Source: Alphaproteobacteria bacterium
GTDB lineage: Bacteria > Pseudomonadota > Alphaproteobacteria > UBA828
Direction: 5' to 3'
Assembly: GCA_022826665.1 (NCBI GenBank)
Contig: JAJDUK010000077.1
Span: 1 to 55,976 of the forward strand
Length of the DNA: 55,976 bases
In this document: positions 909 through 17,545 of the stretch, piece after piece
How positions within the stretch are numbered: position 1 is the stretch's first letter
Layout of the letters: each line of letters starts with the position of its first letter
Translations under genes and position numbers: made by a program
The notes under the pieces: model-generated
Database searches by the model: none
What the model was told of the DNA's origin: nothing
The model's input: the letters and a program-made list of their open reading frames with translations, nothing else

Positions 909-1829
909 ATGAAATGCGCCTTATGTCTCGCAAGTATCGCCGCGAGTGCGGTGCTGACCCTCTCCGCTTGCGGCGGAAGTGACGGTTCATTGGGACCGGT
1001 CATGTTCAGTCCCGACCCCACGGCGCCCACAATCGGCGACGCTCAGACCGCAAATCCGACTGCGACACGAGGAGCTGCAGAGAAGGCGGCGAACAATTTG
1101 CCCCAGTTCGGCAGCGTCACCCAGTCTTCAAACGGCGGTTCTGTTTCTGGTATCACAACCGATGCCGCGTCGACTTCGTTCAACGGTCAAGATGTTTCAC
1201 TGACAGTCACTCGCCAGGATGGCAGCACTCTCAGGCTCGACTCCGCGACCGACACCTACGAGAACCTCACGTATGCGTTTTCGTCGCCCGTACCTAGCCA
1301 CACCGGACCCGAATTGTCTGGCAACCCGGTTCTCCCGAGCCTTGGAACTGCCTCATACGCGGGACCAGCGGCTGGGCTTTACGCTTACCAGTACGGGAGC
1401 GACCGATCTGGTATTGCTCAGGGAAGTGCGGAGATAGGTGAGTATTCGGCCACCGCCACGTTTATGGCCGACTTCAACACCAACACCATTTCCGGCTGCA
1501 TCGGCTGCGTCGGCAGGATCACCGTGGCAGGTATCGGTGTCAGTCCTACAGGAGAGACACTCCCATTCGAGAACACGGTCTCAGCTCGCGTGCGCCTCGG
1601 CGCCACCGCGTTCGGTTCTGATGGGGACTTCAGGAGTAGAAATCTGAGCGTCGAAATGGACGGCCGGACGGTCACTGATACCAGTGGTTCGTGGGGCGGC
1701 CAATTCTCGAACATTCAAGATGCTGCCAGTAATCCTCGCCTCGCGGCAGGAACCACAGGAGCCGATTGGACTGAATCGGATGGCAGTCGCGGCGCCTTTG
1801 TTGGCGCATACGTTGGCGCTGCGCAATAG
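909..1829 (+). CDS. TbpB-like surface lipoprotein (transferrin-binding-protein-like solute-binding domain)
   Basis: The start at 909 is chosen because AAGGAGAG lies just upstream and the product then begins with a basic start, a hydrophobic stretch and a lipobox LSAC followed by GGSDG. This gives 306 residues. The C-terminal half resembles the eight-stranded barrel of TbpB-like lipoproteins: ATFMADFNTNTISGCIG, then SGSWGGQFSN, then a stretch AAGTTGADW and a final GSRGAFVGAYVGA strand. In Neisseria such proteins bind host ligands at the cell surface; in alphaproteobacteria most are uncharacterised, so ligand and role are inferred only from family. No TonB receptor or Slam gene is visible beside it. 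The gene ends close to the truncated 3-prime end of the opposing relaxase relic. Confidence 0.7.
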   Translation: MKCALCLASIAASAVLTLSACGGSDGSLGPVMFSPDPTAPTIGDAQTANPTATRGAAEKAANNLPQFGSVTQSSNGGSVSGITTDAASTSFNGQDVSLTVTRQDGSTLRLDSATDTYENLTYAFSSPVPSHTGPELSGNPVLPSLGTASYAGPAAGLYAYQYGSDRSGIAQGSAEIGEYSATATFMADFNTNTISGCIGCVGRITVAGIGVSPTGETLPFENTVSARVRLGATAFGSDGDFRSRNLSVEMDGRTVTDTSGSWGGQFSNIQDAASNPRLAAGTTGADWTESDGSRGAFVGAYVGAAQ

Positions 1830-2009
1830 GGCAGGCCTGGCCGTCTGCAGTCGTGCGACAGCGCTCACATGCTCCAGCTCGTCCCCCGGCTCAGCCCTTG
1901 ACCCGTCTCTCGACCGCTCCGGTCCCGAACTTCCGATGCATGCCTCCGGGCCCCGCCCGGCGGCTTGCCGGTTCCGGGCCTTGCGCGACACCGCCGCGTC
2001 TTGCGAGGG

Positions 2010-4351
2010 CTGCACTTCGAGGTCCTCCACTGTGACCACGGTGCCGTTGAAGAGCTGCTTCTCCCACTGCGTAGCCCCGATGCGGATGCGGTCGCCGACG
2101 GCGATCTCCAAGGGCTCCGTCTTGCGCCCGTCCACGTCCCGGCTCACCTCGATCACCGCGCGCTTCGCGTCGGGGGCCTGCGCGAGCATCCGCTCCCGCA
2201 TCAGCCACGACAGCGCCCGGGTCTCTGCCCGCGTGCGTGCGAGCACGACGGCGGACGTGTCGGGCTCGGCCTTCACATGCCGGGCCCAGTCGTCCACCAG
2301 CCTGGCGATCGTCTTCTCTTCGTCGTGGCAGAGATGGAGCCGGTTGCGCAGATGCCACGCCTCGATGGACTTCTCCGCCTCGCCGTCCCTGAGCGCCTCC
2401 GACACCGCCACCTGCCACGGCGTGAACACCGGTTTGCGCTCCATCGCCTCGTAGTCGGCGAGGATGGCGTCGCGGTCCTGCTGATTGGTGAGACCCGCCC
2501 TGAAACGCGCCTGCTCCGGCGTCTCCTTGTGGACGTGGACGAGAACGTCTTCGAGGTCGGCCTTCTGGCGCCTGATGCGGTCGACGCGGATGCTGCCGGC
2601 GACGTCCCGGATCAGCCGCAACCCCGGCCCTGCCTCCACGGGCTGCTGCTGCCGCGTGTCGCCCGCGAACACCACCTTCGCGCCGTGACGCTCGGAGAGC
2701 TGAAGGATGTGACGCGCCTGGCGGGTCGACAGCATCCCCGCCTCGTCCACCACGATCAGCGTGCGCTTGCCGATCTCCACCTGCCCCTTCGCGGCGAGCT
2801 TGAGAAGCTTGTCCACGCAATAGGCCCTGGCGTGACAGTCGTCGCCGAGCGCCACGCGACGGCGGTCGGCACGATCTCGTAGCCGTGCTCCCTGTGAAGA
2901 TCGGTGATGGGCCTCAAGGTGGTGGTCTTGCCCGACCCCGCCGCTCCCTCGATCACGGCGACGCGTCCGCCCTTTGTCGTCGCATGGCGGATCGCCAGCG
3001 ACTGCTCTTGGCTCAACGGATAGCCCTGCTCCAGCAGGATTTCCACCTTCTCCTTGACCGCCTGTTCCGGCAGGCCATGGCTGGTATCGGCGGCCATGGC
3101 CTCCGCCATGTCGCGCACCGCCTGCTCCAGGCCGAGGTTGTGGCGCGTGGAATAGACCTCGGTATGGACCATGCCGGCCCTGGACTCGGCAGTCGGCTTC
3201 TTGGGCTCCAGCCGCTCGATCTCCGGGTTGCGGCGCAGCCGCTCGATCGCCATCCCCACCGCCTCCCGGCCCATCAGACCGGCCGCCGCGTTGGCCGCCG
3301 CCTCCACCATGTCCGGGCGCCGGAACACCGCCTCCTCGCGCGCAAGGTGGGCGGGAAGATCGTTGAGCCGGTCGGTCAGCTCCCGGATTTGTTCCTGTCC
3401 GATCTTGATTTGATGGCCGGTGACTGCGGCGATCAGCTCCTCGCGCTCGACATAGCCTTCTGCTTCGTCTCGCCAGCGGCGGTACCTGACCTCGGGATCG
3501 TTGTCGTGCGACTTGCCCTCGCGTGTGATCTTGTTCACCCCCGCCATGCGGGCAGCATTGCCCAATGATGGAATCCCCAGCTCGCCGGCCCGCGCAACGA
3601 TCGCCTTTCTGCGCTTCGACCAGAAAGATTGCAGGTCCTCCGGCATGCCCTGGATGCGCGTGAACTCGGCGTTGGGACCGTACTGCTCCATCTTGACACC
3701 CACACCCAGACTCTGTTGCAGGTCCCAGGCCATGTAGGCGCGGAACAGGGCGCCGGCCGCCTTCTTCCAGCTATAGACCGGGTACTGGTGATGCGCCCGC
3801 CACTTGCCGTCCTCGCGGGCTCGCGCGACGTTGAAGATCGTGCAGTGGACGTGAAGCTGCGGGTCGTTCTCCCGGCTGGTGCCGTGGACGAAGGCGGCCC
3901 CCATCAGGTCGGCTTCCACCGGCCGGGGCACCCCTTTCTCGCTCACGCGGGTGTAGCTGCAATAACGGAGCACCGTGTCTTCGAGCGCCGCCCGCGCCGA
4001 GGCCACCGCCATCGCCTCGATCCGCTCGCGCATCTCCGGCTCTGCGATGGCCCAGAGAGCCGAGACGCTCTTGTCCACCGAGAACGTCATGTCGACACCG
4101 GGGGAGCGGTCCGGATTGCCCGCCCGCTGCACCAGCTTGCCGGATCCGTCCGGCGCGAAGCCGTTATAGAGGCGGTGGAAGTGGCCGGAATCCACCTTGA
4201 CCCCGTCCTCCAGGCCGAACAGTCCCTTCGGGTTGAACCAGGTGCCGTCGGGCTCCTCTCCTGCCGTGTAGTACTCGTTGGGATGCCGGAACGAGCGCTG
4301 GCTCTCCAGGTAGTACTCGGCAGACGCCATCTGACCGATGGTGGCTACCAA
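2010..4351 (-). pseudogene. traA: TraA/MobF conjugative relaxase-helicase, frameshifted and 3-prime truncated
   Basis: The first ~520 residues, starting MVATIGQMASAEYYLESQRS, are a TrwC/TraA relaxase domain. The metal-binding histidines are in the sequence DPQLHVHCTIFN and the catalytic tyrosine pair region YYL is at the start. A helicase Walker A motif, EGAAGSGKTTT, follows. Near 2855 the frame shifts by one base: the last codons of the first frame read PTAVAW, and the next frame resumes VALGDDCHARAYCVDKL with Walker B VVDEAGM. Homology then runs to about 2010 (NGTVVTVEDLEVQ) and stops, although TraA proteins usually continue for hundreds of residues. The frame remains open to 1581, antisense to the lipoprotein gene, but that tail has no family features. 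The gene is therefore a dead relic of a conjugative or mobilisable element. Confidence 0.85.
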
Positions 4352-5536: not shown

Positions 5537-6271
5537 TCAATAGCCGAGAACGCTGTAGTCGCCGTTCACGATCAGGCGAATCGAGACGTAGAGTCCCAGC
5601 AGGGCGAACAGCACCCACGGGCAATTCAGCGCCCAGATATAGATGTACATATCCTTTCGGCCAAGGCGGCTTTGTCGATTGGCCACGAAGAAGCTGACCC
5701 AGTAGATCGACGTCGCGTAGGTCAACTGCCAGAATATCATCGCTCCCATAATGCCGGCGACAAGGGCGGGCAAGAAATCGACGGTGAAGGCGGCGAAGAG
5801 GATCAGCGTTGGCAGCGGCGTTACGAAGCCGTTGGCGATATCCACGTTGTAACCGTATGTGCGCCGGTCCGCGTAGGAACTGTCGAACTGGGAATACGTG
5901 GCCCAGACGTCCGCCCACATCGTCGACGAAAAAATTCGCGTCAACGGAACCCTTCCGGTGAGGAATTCGACCGCCGACGTCCGGCCCGTCTCTCGCGAGC
6001 GTTCGCGCCAGTATTGGGCGCGTTTCTCGATGTAGTCGCGTTTGAAGAACAGGCATATCTCCCAATGACAGATCACCAGATTTACGGAAAAGAAGAGGAT
6101 CAGAAGCCCATGGATAACGTCGAAATCCCCGCGGACGCCGTAGCGCGCACCGATGCCGGACGCTGTCAGACTTGCGATGACCAGCCCCGTGAATACGACC
6201 GGTGCAATCGCCAACCGAGTCCGGTGGGTGTCGCGATCCGAACGGGTTTGCGCGGCCTGCTTTTCAGCCAT
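5537..6271 (-). CDS. Five-helix membrane protein, possible EBP/EXPERA-like sterol isomerase
   Basis: The start at 6271 (MAEKQAAQTR) is preceded by GAGAGGA and gives 244 residues; the open frame extends further upstream but that part is not protein-like. Five hydrophobic segments fall near residues 20-40, 52-76, 148-168, 169-197 and 208-236, matching the five-helix size of emopamil-binding protein (delta8-delta7 sterol isomerase). From memory of the EBP family I see matching landmarks: H69 and E71 at the end of helix 2 (family HxxxE), W123-x-x-Y126-x-x-x-D130-x-x-Y133 in the cytosolic loop (human WKEYAKGDSRY), and N216-x-x-W219 in the last helix (human NALW). The acidic residue at the start of helix 3 is less clear. 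It is divergent from the sterol methyltransferase gene. The function is an inference; otherwise it is an uncharacterised integral membrane protein. Confidence 0.4.
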   Translation of the reverse strand: MAEKQAAQTRSDRDTHRTRLAIAPVVFTGLVIASLTASGIGARYGVRGDFDVIHGLLILFFSVNLVICHWEICLFFKRDYIEKRAQYWRERSRETGRTSAVEFLTGRVPLTRIFSSTMWADVWATYSQFDSSYADRRTYGYNVDIANGFVTPLPTLILFAAFTVDFLPALVAGIMGAMIFWQLTYATSIYWVSFFVANRQSRLGRKDMYIYIWALNCPWVLFALLGLYVSIRLIVNGDYSVLGY

Positions 6272-6459
6272 GTGGTCCCATCCTCTCTGGCGCTGCGGCG
6301 TTGCCTCTCGCCCCATTGTACCCTGTGGAAAGTTCGGCGCCCCGAACAAGGGCGCTGCGCCTGGGACTCCGTGGATATCGGCGTCATGAAGCGAGGCATC
6401 GGAGTTTCCCATGACTTTCCGGTCTTGGGGACGGCGTATGATTCTGGCAGAATGTGCCC

Positions 6460-7491
6460 ATGAATCGCACCTCCGCCACCCGATCGAAAGCGCGCTCCCT
6501 CGCGGGCCTCGCCCCGGACGAAGTAAAGTCCACGGTCGATGGATACACCGAAATCTTTGACGCCGGCCTGGAGCGCAGGAAGGAGCATTATCGCTCGTTC
6601 GTAAGTCGCTACTACGACCTGGCGACCGACTTCTACGAGTTTGGTTGGGGCCAATCTTTTCACTTCGCACCCCGCAGCCGGGGCGAGAGCTTCAAGGCAT
6701 CGCTGCTCAGACACCAGCATTTCCTCGCTGAAAAGCTGTCCCTGAAGCCGGGTATGCAAGTAATCGATCTGGGATGCGGGGTCGGCGGACCGATGGGCAA
6801 TCTGGCCCGTCATTTCGGGGCGAGCTTTGTCGGCGTCAACAACAACGCCTACCAGATCGAGCGCGCAAGACTGCACACTCGGGATGTCCAGTCGTTATGT
6901 CGCTTTATTCACAGTGACTACATGGAGATTCCCGACGACGACGACCGCTACGATGCCGCCATGGCGATCGAGTCCATGCCCCACGCACCCGACAAGACAG
7001 CGGCGTTCCGCGAGGTCTTGCGCGTGCTGCGTCCGGGGGCCTGTTTCGCGGGCTACGAGTGGTGCGTTACCGACATATTTGATACCGGCAAGCCGGAGCA
7101 CCGGCGAATAAAAAACGATATCATGGCCGGGAATGGGCTGCCGGATATCGCGACCACGTCGGAAGTTTCCGCCGCATTGCAGACGGCCGGGTTCGAGCTC
7201 CTGGAAGCGCGCGACCGCGCACCCGATGCGGACCCGGAGACGCCGTGGTACCGTTCCTTGCAGGGCCGCGACCTCAGTCTTTCGAGTATTCCGCGCACGC
7301 CGGTCGGCCGCGTTCTGACTAATTTCACTTTGCGGGTGGGAGAACGGCTGCGGCTCTTTCCCGAGGGCGCCCGCGCAGTCAGCACGCTCCTGAATGCGGG
7401 AGCGGACGCGCTGGTGGACGGCGGCAAGTCCGGCGTCTTCACGCCGATGTTCTTTTTCCTGGCCCGCAAACCCGGGCGCCCGCGCGACTGA
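6460..7491 (+). CDS. smt: Sterol C-24 methyltransferase (ERG6/SMT family)
   Basis: This 343-residue SAM-dependent enzyme would transfer a methyl group to C-24 of the sterol side chain. Residues 59-70 read YEFGWGQSFHFA, the sterol-binding region I that is diagnostic of ERG6/SMT enzymes. Residues 101-111, VIDLGCGVGGP, are the SAM-binding motif, and 167-176, AMAIESMPHAP, match the SMT region II (family IEATCHAP). The C-terminal third corresponds to the sterol methyltransferase C-terminal domain. I use ATG 6460; a GTG at 6454 is also possible and neither has a strong ribosome site. It converges on the fused squalene epoxidase-cyclase gene with only ~60 bases between stops, and is divergent from the possible EBP-like gene. 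C-24 methyltransferases are rare in bacteria. Confidence 0.9.
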   Translation: MNRTSATRSKARSLAGLAPDEVKSTVDGYTEIFDAGLERRKEHYRSFVSRYYDLATDFYEFGWGQSFHFAPRSRGESFKASLLRHQHFLAEKLSLKPGMQVIDLGCGVGGPMGNLARHFGASFVGVNNNAYQIERARLHTRDVQSLCRFIHSDYMEIPDDDDRYDAAMAIESMPHAPDKTAAFREVLRVLRPGACFAGYEWCVTDIFDTGKPEHRRIKNDIMAGNGLPDIATTSEVSAALQTAGFELLEARDRAPDADPETPWYRSLQGRDLSLSSIPRTPVGRVLTNFTLRVGERLRLFPEGARAVSTLLNAGADALVDGGKSGVFTPMFFFLARKPGRPRD

Positions 7492-7550: not shown

Positions 7551-10500
7551 TCAGGCGGCAGCCGCTTCGGGCGGGGGCGGCGACGTGTCGGCGGCACACG
7601 GAGCGTGGTCGCCGAGACCCAGCCGCTGGCGGCGGCGCTGCTCGTAGAGGGCGAGCGCGTGCAGCGGGAAATACTGTCGATACAGCACGTAATCCAGGAG
7701 CGCCGTGCGGAAGAAGACGCCCGCCATGTCCTGCTTGGGCCATGTCCCGTCCGCGTCCTGTGCGTCGAGCAGGAAGCGGGCGCCCCGCGAAATCGCGGTC
7801 CAGTTCGATTCGCCGGCCTCGAGGAGCGCGATCAACGCCCACGCGGTCTGGATGACCTGGCTTTCGTCGTGCGGGACATACCGGCCGGTCAGGCATCCGC
7901 TGTGGTGCTCGCCCCATCCGCCGTCTTCCCGCTGGCGCTCCAGCAGCCAGCGGCAAGCCGAGCGAAGCGCCGGATCGCCGGGGCCGGCCCCGGCGGCAAG
8001 AAGACCCCTGACCCCGAAGAGGGTGCCGTAAATGAATTGAACTCCCCATACGCCGCGCCACGACCCGTCACTTGCCTGGGTCCGGCGGAGCCAGGCACCG
8101 GCCCTGGACATGGCGCCCGTCACCGCTCCGTTCGCGATTTGCGGAACGTCCTCCATGCAGGCGGCGAGCGCCGCGAGGCAGGACGCGGTGCACTCGACAT
8201 AGGATTGCTCGGTCATCGAATCGCCGAACATCTCGGCCGGATTCATCCACTCCAGACCGAAAGCCGAGCGTCGCGCCTCGTAGCTGCCGAAGCCGCCATC
8301 GCGGTTCTGGCAGCGCAGCATGAACCCGACCGCATCACGCAACGCGCTTGCGTGCGCAGCACCGCGACCGGCAGCGTGAAGTCCGAGCACCGCTTCCGCA
8401 GTGCAGTCGCTCACCGGCCAGCCATGCCATCCCCCGGCAAAGCACCAGCCGCCCCTGGGGTCGGTTCGATAGGCCTCGCGAAACCCTTCGAAGCTAGCGG
8501 CAATCTGTTCTCCGAGCAGGAAGTCGGCGCCGCGCTGCAGCGCGTCCCCTACCCCGTCGAACGCGGGCACCGCCGCCAGCGCCTGCAACGCGAAGCCGCT
8601 GTCCCACGAGGCGCTTCTCGCGCCGACGACACGCGCACCCTCTTCCTCGTCTTCCCAGATCCAGTCGTCCAGCTTCGCGAGCGCCTGGCGCAGATCGGCG
8701 TCGTCCGGATCGCGCAGCCACAGGGCAAGCATGTTGAGAAGGCCGCTCACCGGAGAGATGCTCGTATGGCTGGTGGTCTGCAGCTCCCATCTGATCTGCC
8801 GGACGATCGCCTCCGTGCATCTGGCACGCAGGCGTTTGCCGTGGAGCCGATTGAACACGCGCGCAATCTTGTATCCAACCTTGAGCCACACGCTCGGCCG
8901 CGCGTAGAGGTCGGCCTCCCGCAGGCGATTGCGGGCGGCGGAGAAATCGACCTCGGCAAAGCCATGGGGGTACAGCTCCTCCCTCAACGACGCGATCGCT
9001 GGCGTGACGGGCGCCTGGAAGCGATGCGGGTAGATCGCCGCCATCGCCATGTAGATGAGCCGGGTATGGCAGTACCAATTCGAGGGGTGCAGGGGTAAGC
9101 GGCGCGGCAGGCTCCACAGTTCCGGCAGAACGGCGTTGACTCCACGCCAGTCGTAGAGGTTCAGCAGCGCCAGCCAGAACTTTCCCCAGCTCGGAATACC
9201 GAGAATCCCCTCAGCCTGGATGAAGCGCCGGGCCGGCTCGACCAGCGGATCGTCGCGCTCGACCCCGAGCAGCCTGGCCGCGACGTAGACCAGGGAGGTG
9301 ACGAAGAGGTGGGGCGTCGAATGCTCGTGCAGACCCCATGCGCCCCCGTCGAGACGGGTCCGTTCGAACGAGCGCAGCACGCGCCGGCGCCGGCCGGGCT
9401 CGAGCGGCTGCCCGATGATGTGGTGCAGCAGCACATATTGCGCGGTGAGCATGGGGCACCAGACCATCTCGCCCTCCCAGCCGCCATCCTCGCCCTGGAG
9501 GCTCAGGAGGTGCGCGGTCGCGCTCCTCAATGCTGGACCGGCATCGGCCGATTCAGAGTCGTTCGGCCGGCCGGACCCGGAAGCGTGGGGCCGCGGCGGC
9601 ATGGAGTGCAAAAGTGCGCGGGCCAGGCTGTCCAGGGCTCGCTCGTCATTCCGCCCGCCCTGGCGTCTCGACTGGCGCAGCTGCAGAGCCCAGCGCAGGA
9701 GCCACAAGAGACGAACGGTGAGCGCCCCGAAGATCTTCAGGCCCCGACGCGGAGCGAACCGGCGCAAGGAGAGCGGAATCTCCACGGCCGCCGCCCGGGC
9801 CGCCGTTGCGAAAAACGCGAGACCCATCTCGAGCGCGGATCGGTCTTCGCAGGCGAGTATCCGCGTGGTCCGGTCCCGGTAATAGGAGTTTGTCCGCAAT
9901 CCTCGGTAGACCGCGTGTCTCATCGCCACCGCCTCGGCCCGATGATCGGCAAAGACCTCGTAGAGCCCCATGGCGAGCAGCTCCGGCACTTGGGTGGCCC
10001 GGAAACGCCCGGCGGCGAACTCGCGAAAGCTGCCGCTCTCGGCGAGGGCAAGCGCGTCGCCGAAACCGAGGGTCATGCCGACCGCCGTCATGGGATGGTA
10101 GTGCCCGGCCGCGTCGCCGATCAGCACGCGACGCGGGGTACCGTATGTGACTCGCGGCCGCAGCTGATTGGCCGCAACGTGGAATTGCCCCGCCCGCACC
10201 GCTTCGACGAACCCCGGCCTGAGAGCCTCCGGCAGCAGAACGGCATAGGACTCGGTCAGGAAGCCGATCCGGTCCTGGCGTGTCCAGCGGTCCAGCGGAA
10301 CGTCGACGATGATCCGGACGCAACCCTTTGCTAAACCGTATGCGAGAATCGGCCCCGGCCCGCCCAGCAGCACATGCCCGTGACCCTCGAAGGGCAGGCT
10401 CACGTCGCTCACCGTGATCCCCAGCATCCGCGAGCAGAGCATCGGGTCTGTCGACAGGCCCAGGGATTGGCGCACGATCGACGCCCGGCCGTCGGCGCCG

Positions 10501-10964
10501 ATAATCCGCGCGGCGTCGAGGGTGTGAACCGTGCCGTTGTTGCTGTAGGCCAGCCGCTCGTCTTCGACCGCATTCACCCGCGCATGGGTGAAGAAATCCA
10601 CATCCGCCTCCTTCTCGACGGCTTCCCGCAGCGTCGAGACGAGCAAGGCGTGTTCGCAAGCCAGACCCTGCGAGCCATTCGTGTAGGGAAGGACGATCGG
10701 CTCCGAGCCGTCTTCCGGGAACACCACGAAACCCCTGCCCGTGGCGCTGCGGGGTAGGGTGTCGAGCCCGATCCCGAAGTCCTGCAGTATCCGTACCCCA
10801 GGTGGATGCAGCCATTCGCCCGCCAGGCGCTCTGACCCCTTGGGATTCGCTTCGAGCAGAGCCACCCGGGCGCCCTTCCGCGCGTGAGCGAGCGCGCACA
10901 GGCTCCCGACCGGCCCCGCGCCGACAATGGCCACGTCGTAACGCCGCGACGCGGCGCCGCTCAT
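7551..10964 (-). CDS. Fused squalene epoxidase - oxidosqualene cyclase
   Basis: One 1137-residue open frame joins two consecutive sterol enzymes. Residues 1-430 are an FAD squalene monooxygenase: GAGPVG at 15-20, the DG motif GADGR at 156-160, GDAAGHYHPM at 283-292, and a hydrophobic membrane segment near 408-428. A low-complexity linker (431-478) leads into an oxidosqualene cyclase (479-1137) with QW repeats (QGEDGGW, QNRDGGF, QASDGSW, QREDGGW, QDADGTW) and the catalytic VSDCTAE at 851-857, D853 being the proton donor. DCTAE, not the DxDD of hopene cyclases, marks it as an oxidosqualene cyclase. V851 is lanosterol-synthase-like (cycloartenol synthases have Ile) while H847 is cycloartenol-synthase-like, so the product is not certain. 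The ATG at 10962-10964 overlaps the CYP51 stop (ATGA). No stop or frameshift separates the halves. Confidence 0.92.
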   Translation of the reverse strand: MSGAASRRYDVAIVGAGPVGSLCALAHARKGARVALLEANPKGSERLAGEWLHPPGVRILQDFGIGLDTLPRSATGRGFVVFPEDGSEPIVLPYTNGSQGLACEHALLVSTLREAVEKEADVDFFTHARVNAVEDERLAYSNNGTVHTLDAARIIGADGRASIVRQSLGLSTDPMLCSRMLGITVSDVSLPFEGHGHVLLGGPGPILAYGLAKGCVRIIVDVPLDRWTRQDRIGFLTESYAVLLPEALRPGFVEAVRAGQFHVAANQLRPRVTYGTPRRVLIGDAAGHYHPMTAVGMTLGFGDALALAESGSFREFAAGRFRATQVPELLAMGLYEVFADHRAEAVAMRHAVYRGLRTNSYYRDRTTRILACEDRSALEMGLAFFATAARAAAVEIPLSLRRFAPRRGLKIFGALTVRLLWLLRWALQLRQSRRQGGRNDERALDSLARALLHSMPPRPHASGSGRPNDSESADAGPALRSATAHLLSLQGEDGGWEGEMVWCPMLTAQYVLLHHIIGQPLEPGRRRRVLRSFERTRLDGGAWGLHEHSTPHLFVTSLVYVAARLLGVERDDPLVEPARRFIQAEGILGIPSWGKFWLALLNLYDWRGVNAVLPELWSLPRRLPLHPSNWYCHTRLIYMAMAAIYPHRFQAPVTPAIASLREELYPHGFAEVDFSAARNRLREADLYARPSVWLKVGYKIARVFNRLHGKRLRARCTEAIVRQIRWELQTTSHTSISPVSGLLNMLALWLRDPDDADLRQALAKLDDWIWEDEEEGARVVGARSASWDSGFALQALAAVPAFDGVGDALQRGADFLLGEQIAASFEGFREAYRTDPRGGWCFAGGWHGWPVSDCTAEAVLGLHAAGRGAAHASALRDAVGFMLRCQNRDGGFGSYEARRSAFGLEWMNPAEMFGDSMTEQSYVECTASCLAALAACMEDVPQIANGAVTGAMSRAGAWLRRTQASDGSWRGVWGVQFIYGTLFGVRGLLAAGAGPGDPALRSACRWLLERQREDGGWGEHHSGCLTGRYVPHDESQVIQTAWALIALLEAGESNWTAISRGARFLLDAQDADGTWPKQDMAGVFFRTALLDYVLYRQYFPLHALALYEQRRRQRLGLGDHAPCAADTSPPPPEAAAA

Positions 10965-12370
10965 CGGAAGACGCTCGGCTGCGCGCGGCGACGGTAGCGG
11001 ACCCGGCACGGTCTCTCGGGTCCCGTCACCCAGCTGCCGTAGTTCGGACGCGGAAACGCGCCGCTGGGAGTGAAGTCGAAACGATCGAGCAGAACGGTCC
11101 AGATCGCCTTGAGCTGCATGTAGGCGAAGTTCTTACCCATGCACGCGTGCTTGCCGCCGCCGAAGCCGATCAGGGCGTAGCGGTGTTGCCTGTCCTCGCT
11201 GGCGGGAGGCGCGAAACGGTCGGGGAAGAAGCGCTCCGGGTCGGCGAATATGTGGGGCAAGCGGTGAGAGACCGCCGGCGACACCATGGCCATGGAGCCG
11301 GCGGGCACGACACGGCCTCCGTAGCGCAGGGGTTCGAGCACCTTGCGGATCAGCAATATCAGCGGCGGGTGCAGCCGCTCGCACTCGCGGACGGCGTTCT
11401 CCAGGGTCGGCTGGCGTTGGAGACTGTCGATGCTCATGGTCTCCGCTTCGCGGTAGACGTCCTGCACCTCGTCTCTTACCCGCGCCAGGTACGATGGCGC
11501 CCGGAGCAGCTCCAGACCAGTCCAGGTCGCGAGCACCGCGCTGGTGTGCTGGCCCGCGAACAGCACCGTCAGCAGGATCCCCGTGATCTCGTCGTCGCTC
11601 AGAGCGCGGCCACTCTTGTAGCGGGCGTTCATGAGCGTCTGCATGAAGTCGTCGGGGCTGGCCCCCGCATTCCGGCGCGCCGCCATGATCCCGCCGAAGA
11701 GCTCCGCCACCCGTCGCCGGGCCCTGTCGCGCTTTCGATGCGACGCAACGGGAAGCCTGGGAAGAAAAAATCCCAGCGTGTTAATGCCCTTCTGCAGGTC
11801 GTGGTAGGTCTCGGCGAAGCCGGTGTCCACCCGATCCCGGACTTCCTGTCCGATCAGGCAGCGGCTAGCGATCTTGACCGTAAGCTCGTTCATCGCGTGC
11901 GGCAGATCGATTTCCCCATCCTCGCCCAGGGCGTCGGCGAACTGCCGCGCTTCCTCGAACATGACGAGGGCGAACCTGCGCATCGCCGCCTCGCGGAGCG
12001 CCGGAAAGAGAAAGCCCAGCTGCTCCGCCATGATGTCGGGGGAGGTGTCGTAGGCAACGCCGCGTCCGAAGATGGGTACGGTGAAGCGGTAGACGGCCTT
12101 GGCGTTCAGCTGTTCCTCGGGCGTCCTGAAATAAAAGTCGTGGGCTTGGGGCCCGGTGAAGAGAACGAAAGCACGGGTACCGAGCCGGAAGCGGAAGAGC
12201 TCACCGTGCTCGCGCCAGCCGCGGCTCAACATGGCGACCGGATCTCTTTGGAACTCCGGCAAATGGCCGATCAGCGGCCGGCTGCCGGTTAGCTCGGGAA
12301 GGGGCTCGTCTGCCCGCGGCGGCAGATTCGCCGTAGGCAGGGTCGCCATGCTGTTGGATCGGTTAGCCAT
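10961..12370 (-). CDS. cyp51: Sterol 14-alpha-demethylase (CYP51)
   Basis: This 469-residue cytochrome P450 removes the 14-alpha methyl of lanosterol-type sterols in three oxidations. The I-helix motif FAGQHTS (271-277) is the CYP51 form, the region YRFTVPIFGRGVAYD (94-108) matches the conserved CYP51 B-prime helix and substrate channel, ECER at 329-332 is the K-helix ExxR, and FGGGKHACMG ends with the haem-ligand Cys410. The start at 12370 follows the C-14 reductase stop by 8 bases; the ATG at 12349 is an alternative. There is no membrane anchor, as usual for bacterial CYP51. No ferredoxin or reductase gene is adjacent, so electrons must come from elsewhere. The 3-prime end overlaps the fusion gene by 4 bases. 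Confidence 0.93.
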   Translation of the reverse strand: MANRSNSMATLPTANLPPRADEPLPELTGSRPLIGHLPEFQRDPVAMLSRGWREHGELFRFRLGTRAFVLFTGPQAHDFYFRTPEEQLNAKAVYRFTVPIFGRGVAYDTSPDIMAEQLGFLFPALREAAMRRFALVMFEEARQFADALGEDGEIDLPHAMNELTVKIASRCLIGQEVRDRVDTGFAETYHDLQKGINTLGFFLPRLPVASHRKRDRARRRVAELFGGIMAARRNAGASPDDFMQTLMNARYKSGRALSDDEITGILLTVLFAGQHTSAVLATWTGLELLRAPSYLARVRDEVQDVYREAETMSIDSLQRQPTLENAVRECERLHPPLILLIRKVLEPLRYGGRVVPAGSMAMVSPAVSHRLPHIFADPERFFPDRFAPPASEDRQHRYALIGFGGGKHACMGKNFAYMQLKAIWTVLLDRFDFTPSGAFPRPNYGSWVTGPERPCRVRYRRRAQPSVFR

Positions 12371-12378
12371 CTCCGCTC

Positions 12379-13479
12379 TCAATGGATGAAGGGCAGCATC
12401 GCGAAGCGCGCATGCTGCGTGTAGCGCTCCCACAGCTCGCCGTACTTGGCACGGCAGCGGCGCTCGTCGCGTCTCGAACGGTGCCACAGCAAGCCCGCGA
12501 GCCACGCCGGCAACAGGAAGGGAGCCCAGGACGTAAACCCGGTGGTCAGGGCGAAGGAGAGGTAGACGCAGATCTCGCCGGTGTAGTTGAGGTGCCGCCC
12601 GATGCCCCAGAACCCGGAGACCAGGAGGCGGCCTTCCAGGGTCCGGGCGGGCTTGCCCCAGATCCTGACGTTGGAATCGCGCTTGAAGCGGTGCTTCTGC
12701 TGGTTAGACCCGCGGAAGAGCCAGAAGCCGAAAACGAAGAGCACAACGATCCCGGCGGCGGCGGCCGGAGACAAGGGCTCCGGTGCGTGAACCAGCCACC
12801 AGCCGGGGAGACAGTAGAAGAAGGGCACCAGCACGTAATCGCCCCAGACCAGCATCCATCCGAAGCGCTCGCGGACGATGTCCCAGGTATGGATCATCCC
12901 CTGTTCGAACTGGAAGTAGTTGAGTACGTAGAGGAAGGTGAAGGTCTGATAGAGCATCATCGCCAGGGTCAACTCGCCGTAAGTCTCATACTGCACGGCG
13001 GCAAACGATGCGTTGAAGAGGGCCAGGCCGATGAGGGAGGGGCAGTAGCTGAAGAGCTTCAGATCGAGCCCGAACCAGGCCGGAGCGGCGTCCACACCGA
13101 AGAAGAAACCCCGCCATGATCCGGGCGATGCATGAGGCTTCCGTACCCCGCGCAGGTAGAGCCAGCCGGAGAGGGCGAACGCGAATCCGTTCGCCACGAC
13201 GAACAGGGCGAGAAGGTGGGTATGCAGCACCGAGAGGGAGAGCACACCGGAGGCTTGCGCGCCACACGCCGCAATCATGACGATCAGATAGAGAGAGAGG
13301 CCGTTGAGCTTGTAGGCGCGCTCGTTTCCGTCGGCATCCGGGCCCGTGATCCGGCGACCCGGCAGCAGCAGCGAAGCCACGAAGAGGAGGGCGATGAACC
13401 CCAGCACCATCGCCGCCGCCTCGAGCAGGGTCTCGCCCGACAGCGCCGATGAGAGGTTGAGCGCTTCAGGCGGCGGCAT
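12379..13479 (-). CDS. Sterol C-14 reductase (ERG24 / lamin B receptor family)
   Basis: A 366-residue multi-pass membrane enzyme that reduces the delta14 double bond left by CYP51 using NADPH. Family signatures are clear: a GPDADGNERAYKLNG segment (47-60, family G-x-x-Y-K-L-N-G), FGLDLKLFSYCP (136-147) matching the conserved DLK region, LLVSGFWGIGRHLNYTGE (285-302), and HRSRRDERRCRAKYGELW (333-350), the NADPH-site end of the family. About eight to ten hydrophobic segments are visible. Its start overlaps the sdmA stop by 14 bases and it runs straight into cyp51, so the two C-14 enzymes are made together. It could also act on delta24(28) or delta7 bonds, since ERG4 and DHCR7 share this fold, but the position beside CYP51 favours C-14. 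Confidence 0.88.
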   Translation of the reverse strand: MPPPEALNLSSALSGETLLEAAAMVLGFIALLFVASLLLPGRRITGPDADGNERAYKLNGLSLYLIVMIAACGAQASGVLSLSVLHTHLLALFVVANGFAFALSGWLYLRGVRKPHASPGSWRGFFFGVDAAPAWFGLDLKLFSYCPSLIGLALFNASFAAVQYETYGELTLAMMLYQTFTFLYVLNYFQFEQGMIHTWDIVRERFGWMLVWGDYVLVPFFYCLPGWWLVHAPEPLSPAAAAGIVVLFVFGFWLFRGSNQQKHRFKRDSNVRIWGKPARTLEGRLLVSGFWGIGRHLNYTGEICVYLSFALTTGFTSWAPFLLPAWLAGLLWHRSRRDERRCRAKYGELWERYTQHARFAMLPFIH

Positions 13480-14563
13480 CGCCGTTCTCCGACCCGCGCG
13501 CCAGATGCTCCTGCCACTTGCGAACGGTCACCTTCTGAAAGGCCCTGACCACTGGATTGAACTCGACGGGACGGGCGTCCCAGTGTCTTTCGTAACCCTC
13601 CTGCTCCGCCTCCAGCGCGAACCGGTCCTGGGCGAGCAGGGGGGCGATGAGCAGGCGATTGGAGACCTTCATGACCGCGGTCATGGCGAAACGGGGAATG
13701 CGCACCGGCAGCAGAGGTACTTTCAGCGACTTGAAATAGAACAGGAAGAACACCCGGCTGGTGCGCTCGTCGACCGGCAGCACGAAGAGCCAGTGCTTTA
13801 TCGCGTCGTCGGTGTTCGACCACTGGTAGGGGTACTCGTAGCAGAGTTCCATGTGATTGGTGTTGAGCCGCCGATGATCGACAAAGAGGCCCGAGATGCG
13901 CCCGCGCCCGACGTGCGTGTCGTAGGCGAGATGCACGTTGTCGCCGAGGGTCTCGCAGCGGGTGAGGGTGGCCCCGTCGAAGGGCCGGTAGCGGCGGTGC
14001 AGGTGTGCGTGGGTAAAGTCGCTCACATTGTCGATCACCATCGAGTGGTGTGCCGACCAGGTGAAACAGAGCGGCACGCAGGCCCAGCGGCCGGATCCCT
14101 CGAGCTCAGGAATGTCCGGAATCCGGCGCTCCTCCGCCAGCGCCGGATCTCCCGGGAAGAGCCAGATCAGACCGTAACGGACCTTCACCGGATAGGTCTT
14201 GAGCGCAAGATTTGGAAAGCTTCGCCCCTGGCGGTCATGGGGCACCCCGGCGGGACGCCCCTTCCCGCCGTACTCCCAGCCATGGTAGGCGCAGACGAGC
14301 CGGCATCCCTGCACGTCGCCCAGGGAGAGCTTGAGCTGGCGATGCGCACAGCGATCCTCGACCGCCTGGAAGGTGCCGTCCTTTCCCCGGAAGAGTGCGA
14401 TGGAACGCTTCCAGAAGACGACCTCGATCACCGTCTCCGGCTTGATCCGGCGCACTTCCTCGACCGGATACCAGTAATTCGGGTCCATGCCCGCGGCGCG
14501 AGCCTGCTGGCGCAGGTTGCCGGCGTCCTCGAAGCCGGGCGGCGCGGCGGGCGCCGCCCTCAT
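13466..14563 (-). CDS. sdmA: SdmA-like Rieske oxygenase for sterol C-4 demethylation
   Basis: A 365-residue Rieske non-haem iron oxygenase. The [2Fe-2S] ligands are C72, H74, C91 and H94 (CAHR and CAYHGW), and the mononuclear iron site is in the stretch DNVSDFTHAHLH. In Methylococcus capsulatus a Rieske oxygenase, SdmA, oxidises the C-4 methyl of sterols and works with the reductase SdmB; the pair is non-homologous to the eukaryotic ERG25/26/27 system. The neighbouring gene here is an SdmB-like reductase with an ATGA overlap, which supports this assignment strongly. A hydrophobic region near residues 250-300 may associate with membrane. No dedicated Rieske reductase is in the cluster. Confidence 0.85.
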   Translation of the reverse strand: MRAAPAAPPGFEDAGNLRQQARAAGMDPNYWYPVEEVRRIKPETVIEVVFWKRSIALFRGKDGTFQAVEDRCAHRQLKLSLGDVQGCRLVCAYHGWEYGGKGRPAGVPHDRQGRSFPNLALKTYPVKVRYGLIWLFPGDPALAEERRIPDIPELEGSGRWACVPLCFTWSAHHSMVIDNVSDFTHAHLHRRYRPFDGATLTRCETLGDNVHLAYDTHVGRGRISGLFVDHRRLNTNHMELCYEYPYQWSNTDDAIKHWLFVLPVDERTSRVFFLFYFKSLKVPLLPVRIPRFAMTAVMKVSNRLLIAPLLAQDRFALEAEQEGYERHWDARPVEFNPVVRAFQKVTVRKWQEHLARGSENGDAAA

Positions 14564-15720
14564 GGCGCGCTCCCGCCTGCCATCATCCGCATGCCCTGGT
14601 CCGGCGCGGGATCGCCCTCCTCACGCGCAACATGCCGACTCGCGGCGTCCTCGCACGGGCGCTTCGCGTGCGGGTTCGCGATCTTGTTGCGGCCGTAGTG
14701 GAACGCATAGGCCTCATGAACCGCGGCACGGAGGCCGGTCGGCCGATAGCCAAGCTCGCGTTTCGCCTTGGAGATGTCGGCGTGGCGGCACTTTCGCAAC
14801 AGGCGTATGGCGCCGGGGGTGAAGCGCTGGGGAAAGCCCGGGTGAACCCGGCTCAGATAGAAGCTCGCGATTTCGGCAAAGACGAGCATGAGGCGGGTCG
14901 GAATGCGCCGGCGCGGCCGCGGGACGCCGGAGACCTCCTCGTAGAGGTCCAGGATATCCGAGATGGTCTTGTACTCGGTGCTGAAGATGTACTTTTCGCC
15001 CGAGCGACCGTGGTGCATGCACAACACGTGCCCTTCGACGATGTCGCGCGCCGCGACGAACTCGAAACCGCCATCGACGTAGGCACGGAGCTTGCCGTTG
15101 GTGTAGTCGCATAAGGTTCTTCCCAGTCGCGAGGGGAAGAAGTCGGCGCCCCCCACCACCGCACAGCACGTCGCGACCACCACGTCCTGCCCTGATGCCG
15201 CCGCGCGCCAGCACTCCTGCTCGACGAGCGACTTGCTGCGCTCGTAGGGCATCGTGCGCTCCATGGGGTAGAACTGCATGGTCTCGTTGCTGGGAGCGGA
15301 GGGATCGTCCAGGTCGTATCCGACCGCGCTGAACGAGCCCGTCACCACCACCCGGCCGACCTCCGCCTCCCGCGCCGCCTGCAGCACGTTGCGGGTACCG
15401 AGAACGTTGCACTCGAACACGTCGCGGCGATGGGCGCGGTTGCCTTCGATGGTCGAGACGTAGGCCGCGCAGTGATAGACGCCCTGACATCCCGTGATCG
15501 CCCGCCTGATGTCATCTAGATCCCGAATGTCGCCGAACGCGCGTTCGACCTCGAGACCTTCCAGGCCCTCGTTGTTGTCCTCGTGTCTCAACAACACTCG
15601 GACCCGCACGCCTTCGTCGAGCAGCCGGCGCACGAGGTTGGCGCCGACATGCCCGGCCGAACCGGTAACAAAGACGGGCGGCATCGAAGATCCCGCCGGT
15701 ATGCTCGATTCCGAACTCAT
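14560..15720 (-). CDS. sdmB: SdmB-like NAD(P)-dependent sterol dehydrogenase/decarboxylase
   Basis: A 386-residue extended short-chain dehydrogenase of the 3-beta-hydroxysteroid dehydrogenase type. Rossmann motif GSAGHVG is at 20-26 and the catalytic YERSK at 159-163, preceded by TGSFSAVG. With SdmA it completes C-4 demethylation: SdmA oxidises the methyl to an acid and SdmB, like ERG26, oxidises the 3-hydroxyl, triggers decarboxylation, and probably handles the ketone. It is the first gene of the minus-strand sterol operon, followed by sdmA (ATGA), C-14 reductase, cyp51 and the fusion. No strong ribosome site precedes 15720; an ATG at 15684 (MPPVFVTG) is also plausible and would place the Rossmann fold at the usual distance from the start. 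The arginine- and proline-rich tail (~350-386) is not conserved in the family as I know it. Confidence 0.82.
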   Translation of the reverse strand: MSSESSIPAGSSMPPVFVTGSAGHVGANLVRRLLDEGVRVRVLLRHEDNNEGLEGLEVERAFGDIRDLDDIRRAITGCQGVYHCAAYVSTIEGNRAHRRDVFECNVLGTRNVLQAAREAEVGRVVVTGSFSAVGYDLDDPSAPSNETMQFYPMERTMPYERSKSLVEQECWRAAASGQDVVVATCCAVVGGADFFPSRLGRTLCDYTNGKLRAYVDGGFEFVAARDIVEGHVLCMHHGRSGEKYIFSTEYKTISDILDLYEEVSGVPRPRRRIPTRLMLVFAEIASFYLSRVHPGFPQRFTPGAIRLLRKCRHADISKAKRELGYRPTGLRAAVHEAYAFHYGRNKIANPHAKRPCEDAASRHVAREEGDPAPDQGMRMMAGGSAP

Positions 15721-16680: not shown

Positions 16681-17545
16681 AGCGCCGCTATTACGGGCGT
16701 GACTTCATCACCGGGAGATGGCGCTGCTGCGCGCGCTGATCGCCGCCTCACCGCCGCCGACCCGCCGGGCCCTTTCGAGAGAGTTTTGCCGGCGCATCGG
16801 CTGGTTCAAGCCCGACGGCGGCTTCAAGGACATGACGGCCCGCGTCACCATGCTGGCCATGCACCGTGACGGCCTGATCACGCTGCCGCCGCCCAAGTGG
16901 GAGCGGGGCCGACCCAAGCCGATCGTCTTCGGGCCGGACACCGAACCGCCGCTGTTCCCGGCGCCGACCGCCCTCGATGACGTTCGCCCCCTCGACCCGC
17001 GCACCGTCGTGCGCTGCACCCGTGAGGGCAAGCTGTGGAACGAGTTTGTCGCCCGTTACCACTATCTCGGCTACAAGACCCTGGTCGGCGCCCAGATGCG
17101 CTACGCTGTCCACGACCGCGACGGCTGGCCCCTCGCCATGCTCGGCTTCAGCACCGCCGCCGGGAAGCTCGCCCCGCGTGACGCCTTCATCGGATAGACG
17201 CCGCAGAAGCGCGAGAAGAGCCTGCCGCTGGTCATCGACAACCCCAGATTCCTGATCCTGCCCTGGATCCATATCCTCAACCTTGGCTCGCACATTCTCG
17301 CCACCGTCCGCCGCCGCCTGCCCGAGGACTGGGCCGAGCGCTATAGCACCACCCCCGTGCTCATCGAGACCTTCGTCGAGACGCCGCGCTACACCGGCGC
17401 CGTCTACAGCGCCTCCGGCTGGACCCATGTCGGAATCACGCAGGGGCGCGGGCGCTACGACCGCGACAAACTCTATGACAAGCCAAAAAAGGACGTCTGG
17501 CTCCGGCCGCTCCAGCGGGATCGGAAGCGAACCCTAAATCGCTAA
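16681..17545 (+). pseudogene. DUF4338 (DruA-like) protein, interrupted by an amber codon
   Basis: From 16718 the frame reads MALLRALIAA, then LSREFCRRIGWFKPDGG, a hallmark of DUF4338 proteins related to DruA of the Druantia defence system and to widespread element-borne relatives. It runs to TAG at 17195-17197 (after RDAFIG, where relatives carry Trp, so TGG to TAG) and continues in the same frame PQKREKSLPLVIDNPRFLIL, LGSHILATVRRRLPEDW, ETPRYTGAVY, KKDVWLRPL and RTLNR to the TAA at 17545. The probable true N-terminus (RRYYGRDF, from ~16681) is in another frame, indicating a second lesion near 16711. So one nonsense and one frameshift separate it from an intact gene. A second relic of the same family lies at 52.2 kb. 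Confidence 0.7.

Follow-up and report, generated by a model that had tools for sequence, protein, structure and literature searches.

The window analysed here, meaning the whole stretch of 55,976 nucleotides, is alphaproteobacterial contig JAJDUK010000077.1 of assembly GCA_022826665.1. Near one end it carries a sterol cluster, and beside the sterol methyltransferase gene of this cluster lies a minus-strand reading frame (ATG at 6271, stop at 5537) whose product is the subject of this analysis. The features relevant to the discussion are as follows; residue numbers without further mention are those of the window protein, and those of EBP refer to the human enzyme.

5537..6271, minus strand: EBP-like (EXPERA) five-helix membrane protein of 244 aa, candidate sterol ring isomerase
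5615..5626, minus strand: N216-x-x-W219, counterpart of EBP N193 and W196 (hhalign register)
5831..5842, minus strand: D144-x-x-N147, counterpart of EBP E122-x-x-T125 (gap-free from W123/W101; both residues invariant)
5882..5905, minus strand: W123 to D130, signature helix, counterpart of EBP W101, Y104 and D108 (EBP-like spacing, hhalign, invariant)
6059..6061, minus strand: codon of the invariant E71, an acid of membrane helix 2 that is proposed to match EBP E80
6272..6453: intergenic region of 182 bp in the divergent pair formed by the EBP-like gene and the methyltransferase gene
6454..7491, plus strand: sterol C-24 methyltransferase (SMT; Sterol_MT_C)
7551..11009, minus strand: squalene epoxidase-oxidosqualene cyclase fusion of 1152 aa (SE/FAD_binding_3 plus SQHop_cyclase N and C)
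10961..12505, minus strand: cytochrome P450 in the CYP51 position, named CYP51 from cluster context; start codon uncertain
12379..13479, minus strand: sterol C-14 reductase family protein (ERG4_ERG24)
13466..14563, minus strand: SdmA-like Rieske C-4 methylsterol oxygenase
14560..15720, minus strand: SdmB-like C-4 decarboxylase/3-ketoreductase

The reading frame at 5537..6271 is a genuine gene subject to purifying selection, because in the close relatives L002-L004 the order of the cluster is kept (L002 ends before the reductase), the gene is 81-83% identical, and comparison with the window gene gives dN of 0.09-0.14 and dS of 0.38-0.53, i.e., dN/dS of approximately 0.2-0.3. As the first-pass annotation had noted, the gene adjoins that of the methyltransferase; the two are divergently transcribed from a 182-bp interval, and no sigma-70-like promoter match was found between 5300 and 7700. 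Beyond the methyltransferase, the minus-strand run reads SdmB-SdmA-C-14 reductase-CYP51-squalene epoxidase/oxidosqualene cyclase. The epoxidase-cyclase fusion scores 752.6 bits against TIGR03463 (osq_cycl), which is under the curated cut-off of 851, and is kept at 78-91% in four related genomes; the two enzymes are fused in frame, and a DCTAE motif is present. The absence of any other isomerase from the cluster, one of the grounds of the original proposal, extends to the whole genome: no match to ERG2/sigma-1 (PF04622) was found anywhere in it at E <= 10, and the window gene is its sole match to PF05241 (EBP), itself under the cut-off. After CYP51, C-14 reduction and SdmAB, the only obvious ring step left empty is apparently delta8 to delta7. 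The flanks of the cluster deserve separate mention. On one side lies a TrwC relaxase with an AAA_30 helicase, split over two frames (1581..4351, minus strand), which points to a mobile element and possibly to transfer, and on the other a DruA-like (PF14236) reading frame (16718..17197, plus strand).

Database searches by sequence reveal little about this protein. NCBIfam gave no match, the PDB searched by sequence with the protein or its family profile gave no meaningful match, and the plasmid collection gave no relevant match. Against PF05241 the protein scores 7.8 bits (10.7 bits in the genome search) and does not reach the gathering cut-off of 25.7, and weak matches to this family occur in 17 of the 20 family members (best E 0.004). 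Several other matches were discarded: NrsF, the top Pfam match (15.6 bits), occurs in one of the 20 members only and is not shared by relatives; ornithine transcarbamylase, the single PDB profile match, was dismissed as chance; and Zymomonas ABC transporters, matched in the plasmid collection at E 0.007, were rejected. Similarly, weaker PF05241 matches elsewhere were dropped, as they lie over ABC-transporter permease-like genes (L043, L045, L047) or over another transporter (L044).

The HMM-HMM comparison with EBP that the first-pass annotation had proposed is considerably more informative. When the family alignment (20 sequences, with relatives drawn from one genome scan and from genome searches) was compared by hhalign with an alignment of human, Planktothrix and alphaproteobacterial EBP-family proteins, the score was 46.7 (E 3.4e-6). 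In 100 shuffles preserving hydropathy class, the score was 15.5 +/- 2.6 with a maximum of 22.8, about half the real value; full shuffles reached at most 25.6, and the reversed alignment gave 13.5. The comparison with human EBP alone is not significant, and the Planktothrix and alphaproteobacterial sequences are required as a bridge. These bacterial proteins of the 'emopamil-binding family' (Planktothrix NZ_LR882940.1 and the alphaproteobacterial L041) have in common with the window protein the signature, the N-x-x-W motif and a W-E pair in helix 2. Unlike the window protein, they reach the EBP profile (L041 with 30 bits, above the Pfam cut-off), and no similarity between bacterial emopamil-binding proteins and the window family was detectable by BLAST in the plasmid collection. 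On Planktothrix agardhii plasmid p2 (L050 1-4519), the gene of such a protein adjoins those of two Rieske proteins and a carbamoyltransferase.

Structural comparison leads to the same family. An AlphaFold model built from the 20 sequences and no templates (mean pLDDT 83.4, pTM 0.80) turns the five hydrophobic segments noted earlier into five membrane helices (24-47, 52-76, a kinked 139-164, 169-196 and 205-236), and a separate amphipathic helix predicted at 116-130 sits where EBP has its horizontal helix H1. The lack of an EBP-like fold had been named in advance as a result that would count against the proposal; instead, the best VIA-align match is human EBP (8w0r, Z 16.1, 2.8 A, 183 aligned residues, model 22-238 with chain 29-215), followed by a second EBP structure (6oht, 15.3), sigma-2/TMEM97 (11.3-11.0) and the first unrelated fold (7.4). 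VIA-align re-examines Foldseek's matches, and folds missing from its list prove nothing; in Foldseek's own ranking, too, the two EBP chains head the list (probability 1.00). The model of a second protein, a BD1-7 relative that is 37% identical, is weaker (pLDDT 74.4, pTM 0.72) and repeats the ranking (EBP 15.5/15.2, sigma-2 10.7-10.4, others <= 7.3). Both known structural branches of the superfamily thus rank at the top with a clear gap below them, as homology predicts. With fold, profile and motif observed to agree, the proposed EBP-like homology stands, and the window protein almost certainly belongs to the EXPERA superfamily (EBP, TMEM97, TM6SF).

Conservation within the family allows this relationship to be followed to individual residues. 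The positions that are invariant across the 20 sequences include N64, C68, E71, W123, Y126, D130, S132, Y133, D135, R136, D144, N147, Q182, Y185, N216 and W219. Among them is every residue of the pattern W123-x-x-Y126-x3-D130-x-x-Y133 and N216-x-x-W219 that had been picked out by eye. In the human EBP sequence, verified against 6OHT, the residues W101, Y104, D108, Y111, E122 and T125 correspond without a gap over 25 columns, and with identical spacing, to W123, Y126, D130, Y133, D144 and N147; the acid D108 of EBP (W-x2-Y-x3-D), the best-conserved acid of the EXPERA superfamily, is thereby D130, and hhalign pairs D144 with E122. N193 and W196 of EBP likewise recur at identical spacing, and this register of N216/N193 and W219/W196 agrees with the offset at which the structural alignment ends (model 238, chain 215). 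Six-frame translation of the fetched DNA (1.5 million residues) contains 39 copies of the core motif W..Y...D..Y, and because all 39 fall in the window-protein family or in PF05241 (EBP) proteins, the signature match to EBP is not due to chance. PMC4263179 lists 11 positions that an alanine scan showed to be essential in EBP; six of these are identical, aligned and invariant in the family, and two more are conservatively replaced and invariant (E122 by D144, T125 by N147). One further position, E80, plausibly corresponds to E71, because of the place of E71 in helix 2 of the model and because of the W-E pair common to bacterial EBP-family proteins. In a forced full-length hhalign, E71 does not stand opposite E80, and profile comparison leaves the register of helix 2 ambiguous, so the equivalence is one that we infer. 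As a landmark, E71 thus holds as an invariant residue (20 of 20), with its identity as the E80 counterpart probable from position, whereas H69, proposed alongside it, fails: it is H in three of the 20 relatives and otherwise Y, F or L.

The differences from human EBP are also considerable. The proteins share the five-helix fold and the horizontal signature helix, and yet identity over the structural alignment is about 13%, R110 is replaced by S, and an insertion of approximately 30 residues separates helix 2 from the signature helix of the window protein. In addition, no residue takes the place of His76: I67, four positions ahead of E71, varies only between I, V and A among the 20 sequences. 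Histidine is kept in this place in Planktothrix, and Q already occupies it in alphaproteobacterial EBP-family proteins. Because the defining His76 is absent from all 20 members, the window protein represents a divergent His-less EXPERA clade and is not EBP proper.

We consider the window protein to be a candidate sterol ring isomerase that acts here from delta8 to delta7, with a probability of roughly 0.6, judged from sequence, a predicted structure and genomic context. The same step would be performed by the ERG2/sigma-1 C-8 sterol isomerase (PF04622), the fold of which is unrelated. In the mechanism put forward for EBP, C9 is protonated by His76 and the C8 cation is stabilised by Trp196, while Glu80, supported by Glu122, takes up the C7 proton (PMC6549186). 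Loss of His76, the proposed proton donor, weakens the delta8 to delta7 reading, as does the presence of the gene in genomes without an oxidosqualene cyclase, where delta8 intermediates would not be made internally, and in gammaproteobacteria in which no close SMT was found. Substrate, direction and catalysis can nevertheless be proposed in outline. The reaction would come after CYP51, the C-14 reductase and SdmAB; the sterol would enter a cavity that helices 2-5 enclose and that has the amphipathic helix 116-130 as its lid; an acid/base pair of E71 and D144 would protonate C9 and remove the C7 proton; and W219 would stabilise the C8 carbocation, while N216 would position the substrate. Since no residue corresponds to His76, proton delivery would have to take another route, possibly through E71/D144 together with ordered water molecules bound to N147, Y126, D130 and Y133, or alternatively through the invariant N64/C68.

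The distribution of the gene bears directly on its substrate. Relatives at 36-83% identity are found in alphaproteobacteria, Dadabacteria, a few gammaproteobacteria, and single MAGs labelled Rhodothermales and Acidobacteria, and the gene is rare (e.g., 2 of 274 gammaproteobacterial genomes). It is divergent from the SMT gene in four genomes with a full or partial cluster, and this adjacency is kept among close relatives only. The fused epoxidase-cyclase was found in G000, G004, G005, G006 and G062; it was not found in the carriers G060/G061 (Dadabacteria), G063, G064 and G065, and its full form was not found in the carrier G007. SMTs are present in G007, G060, G061, G063 and G064, all of which are without a full cyclase, and those of G064 and G063 are 73% and 70% identical to the window SMT, respectively. 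All five tested relatives with the gene have an SMT, vs. 2 of 27 tested without it (Fisher p 1e-4, uncorrected for kinship), and both of these gene-less genomes are incomplete MAGs. The observed genomic context outside the window is therefore one of sterol methyltransferases rather than of the cyclase, which suggests, in cyclase-less and mostly SMT-carrying genomes, a role in remodelling acquired sterols. Beside the SMT in L064 (10614-10701), two short pieces resemble the C-terminus of an oxidosqualene cyclase; this genome has no full cyclase, and the pieces may be what is left of a sterol cluster that has decayed.

In Dadabacteria, the EBP-like gene lies in a syntenic block whose other genes match none of the sterol proteins of the window, and the context is therefore weaker there. 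An accident of genome neighbourhood was considered, and the arrangement in the related genome L008 restores part of the context: the gene heads a run in which an amine-oxidase-like flavoprotein begins approximately 30 bp beyond the stop of the EBP-like gene (the start codon was judged by eye), with a GPP34-P450 fusion and then an MMPL transporter next in line. In Dadabacteria, G064 and G007, relatives of these genes are found next to SMTs and a KshA-type Rieske oxygenase. A second gene set that recurs in several phyla (L062 8111-16118, L063 7628-12702, L066, L067, L068 and L008 5652-12556) comprises an SMT, a KshA-type Rieske oxygenase, the GPP34-P450 fusion, an LkcE-like amine-oxidase-like flavoprotein, an MMPL/HpnN-like transporter and an ERG24-like reductase, and we regard it as a sterol-remodelling set. 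The fusion of a GPP34 (Golgi phosphoprotein 3) domain with a cytochrome P450 is encoded at L063 9146-11170 and L008 8217-10211. No close SMT was found in the gammaproteobacterial carriers; in the BD1-7 clade (L016 8151-15738), the neighbours of the gene include a GMC oxidoreductase, an aldehyde dehydrogenase, an FA_hydroxylase and a 3Beta_HSD-family protein that is nearer to OleD. L016 also holds an SDR and an SRPBCC-like reading frame (by eye) and appears as a lipid-modifying cluster.

Such contexts make it worth asking whether an EXPERA-fold isomerase might act on another sterol bond, e.g., from delta7/delta8 to delta8(14), on a host-derived delta7 sterol or on an SMT-alkylated side chain. 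The loss of His76 and the change of E122 to D suggest altered chemistry, the gene occurs with SMTs in cyclase-less genomes, and in Dadabacteria an SMT, a KshA-type Rieske oxygenase and an ERG24-family reductase lie together and could, as a group, remodel acquired sterols. However, the substrate-contacting residues of EBP (W101, Y104, D108, Y111, N193 and W196) are all kept, and the only obvious empty step in the window is delta8 to delta7, so that action on another bond appears unlikely, although it is the strongest competitor of the delta8 to delta7 reading.

Less probable still is a non-catalytic protein for sterol binding or trafficking, similar to TMEM97/sigma-2. TMEM97 shares the EXPERA fold (Z about 11), ranks second among the fold matches and also has no catalytic histidine; to our knowledge, no isomerase activity has been demonstrated for it, and the nearby MMPL-family transporter in L008 would suit a trafficking role. 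Yet TMEM97 has four helices and covers 151 residues, compared with 183 for EBP, and the window protein, with the five-helix EBP topology, matches EBP much better; moreover, the acids E71 and D144 are strictly invariant, as expected of an enzyme. It is very improbable that the protein is an unrelated polytopic one whose hydrophobic helices converge with those of EBP: the Pfam score below the cut-off and the absence of a PDB match by sequence would fit this, but the shuffled and reversed controls, the zero motif background, and the top ranks of both EBP and TMEM97 in two independent models contradict it.

Even if the delta8 to delta7 reading holds, its description as a new bacterial step is an overstatement, as C-8 isomerase homologs have already been reported in Calothrix (PMC10202945), Methylotuvimicrobium (PMC13277303) and Nannocystis (PMC10152446). 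Kelly et al. (PMC9531527) described such sterol clusters in MAGs from Ircinia sponges, several with ERG2, and the EXPERA protein may take the place of ERG2 in the window cluster. What is new is not the reaction but the clade, with the histidine that it lacks and the way in which it is distributed; no description of this His-less EXPERA clade was found in the open-licence literature.

The carriers appear to be largely sponge symbionts, judging from isolate names and similarity to published clusters. Within this context, the isomerase would fill what looks like a gap in a sterol cluster of the sponge-symbiont type, at the point where C-4 and C-14 demethylation are complete. It is tempting, if rather speculative, to suppose that the His-less clade has spread across phyla, in bacteria that are apparently largely sponge symbionts, as part of a sterol-remodelling kit acting on both de novo and host sterols, together with C-24 methyltransferases, Rieske and P450 oxygenases, ERG24-type reductases and MMPL transporters. 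If this is true, bacterial enzymes would shape the unusual nucleus and side chain of sponge sterols, and the proton relay of the isomerase would differ from that of EBP. The methyltransferases of such clusters bear on the debate about 24-isopropylcholestane as a 'sponge biomarker' (PMC10070321). A natural relative of EBP without the proposed catalytic histidine also allows the mechanism proposed for the human enzyme to be tested by comparison, and cyclase-less bacteria with SMTs are marked as possible modifiers of acquired sterols.
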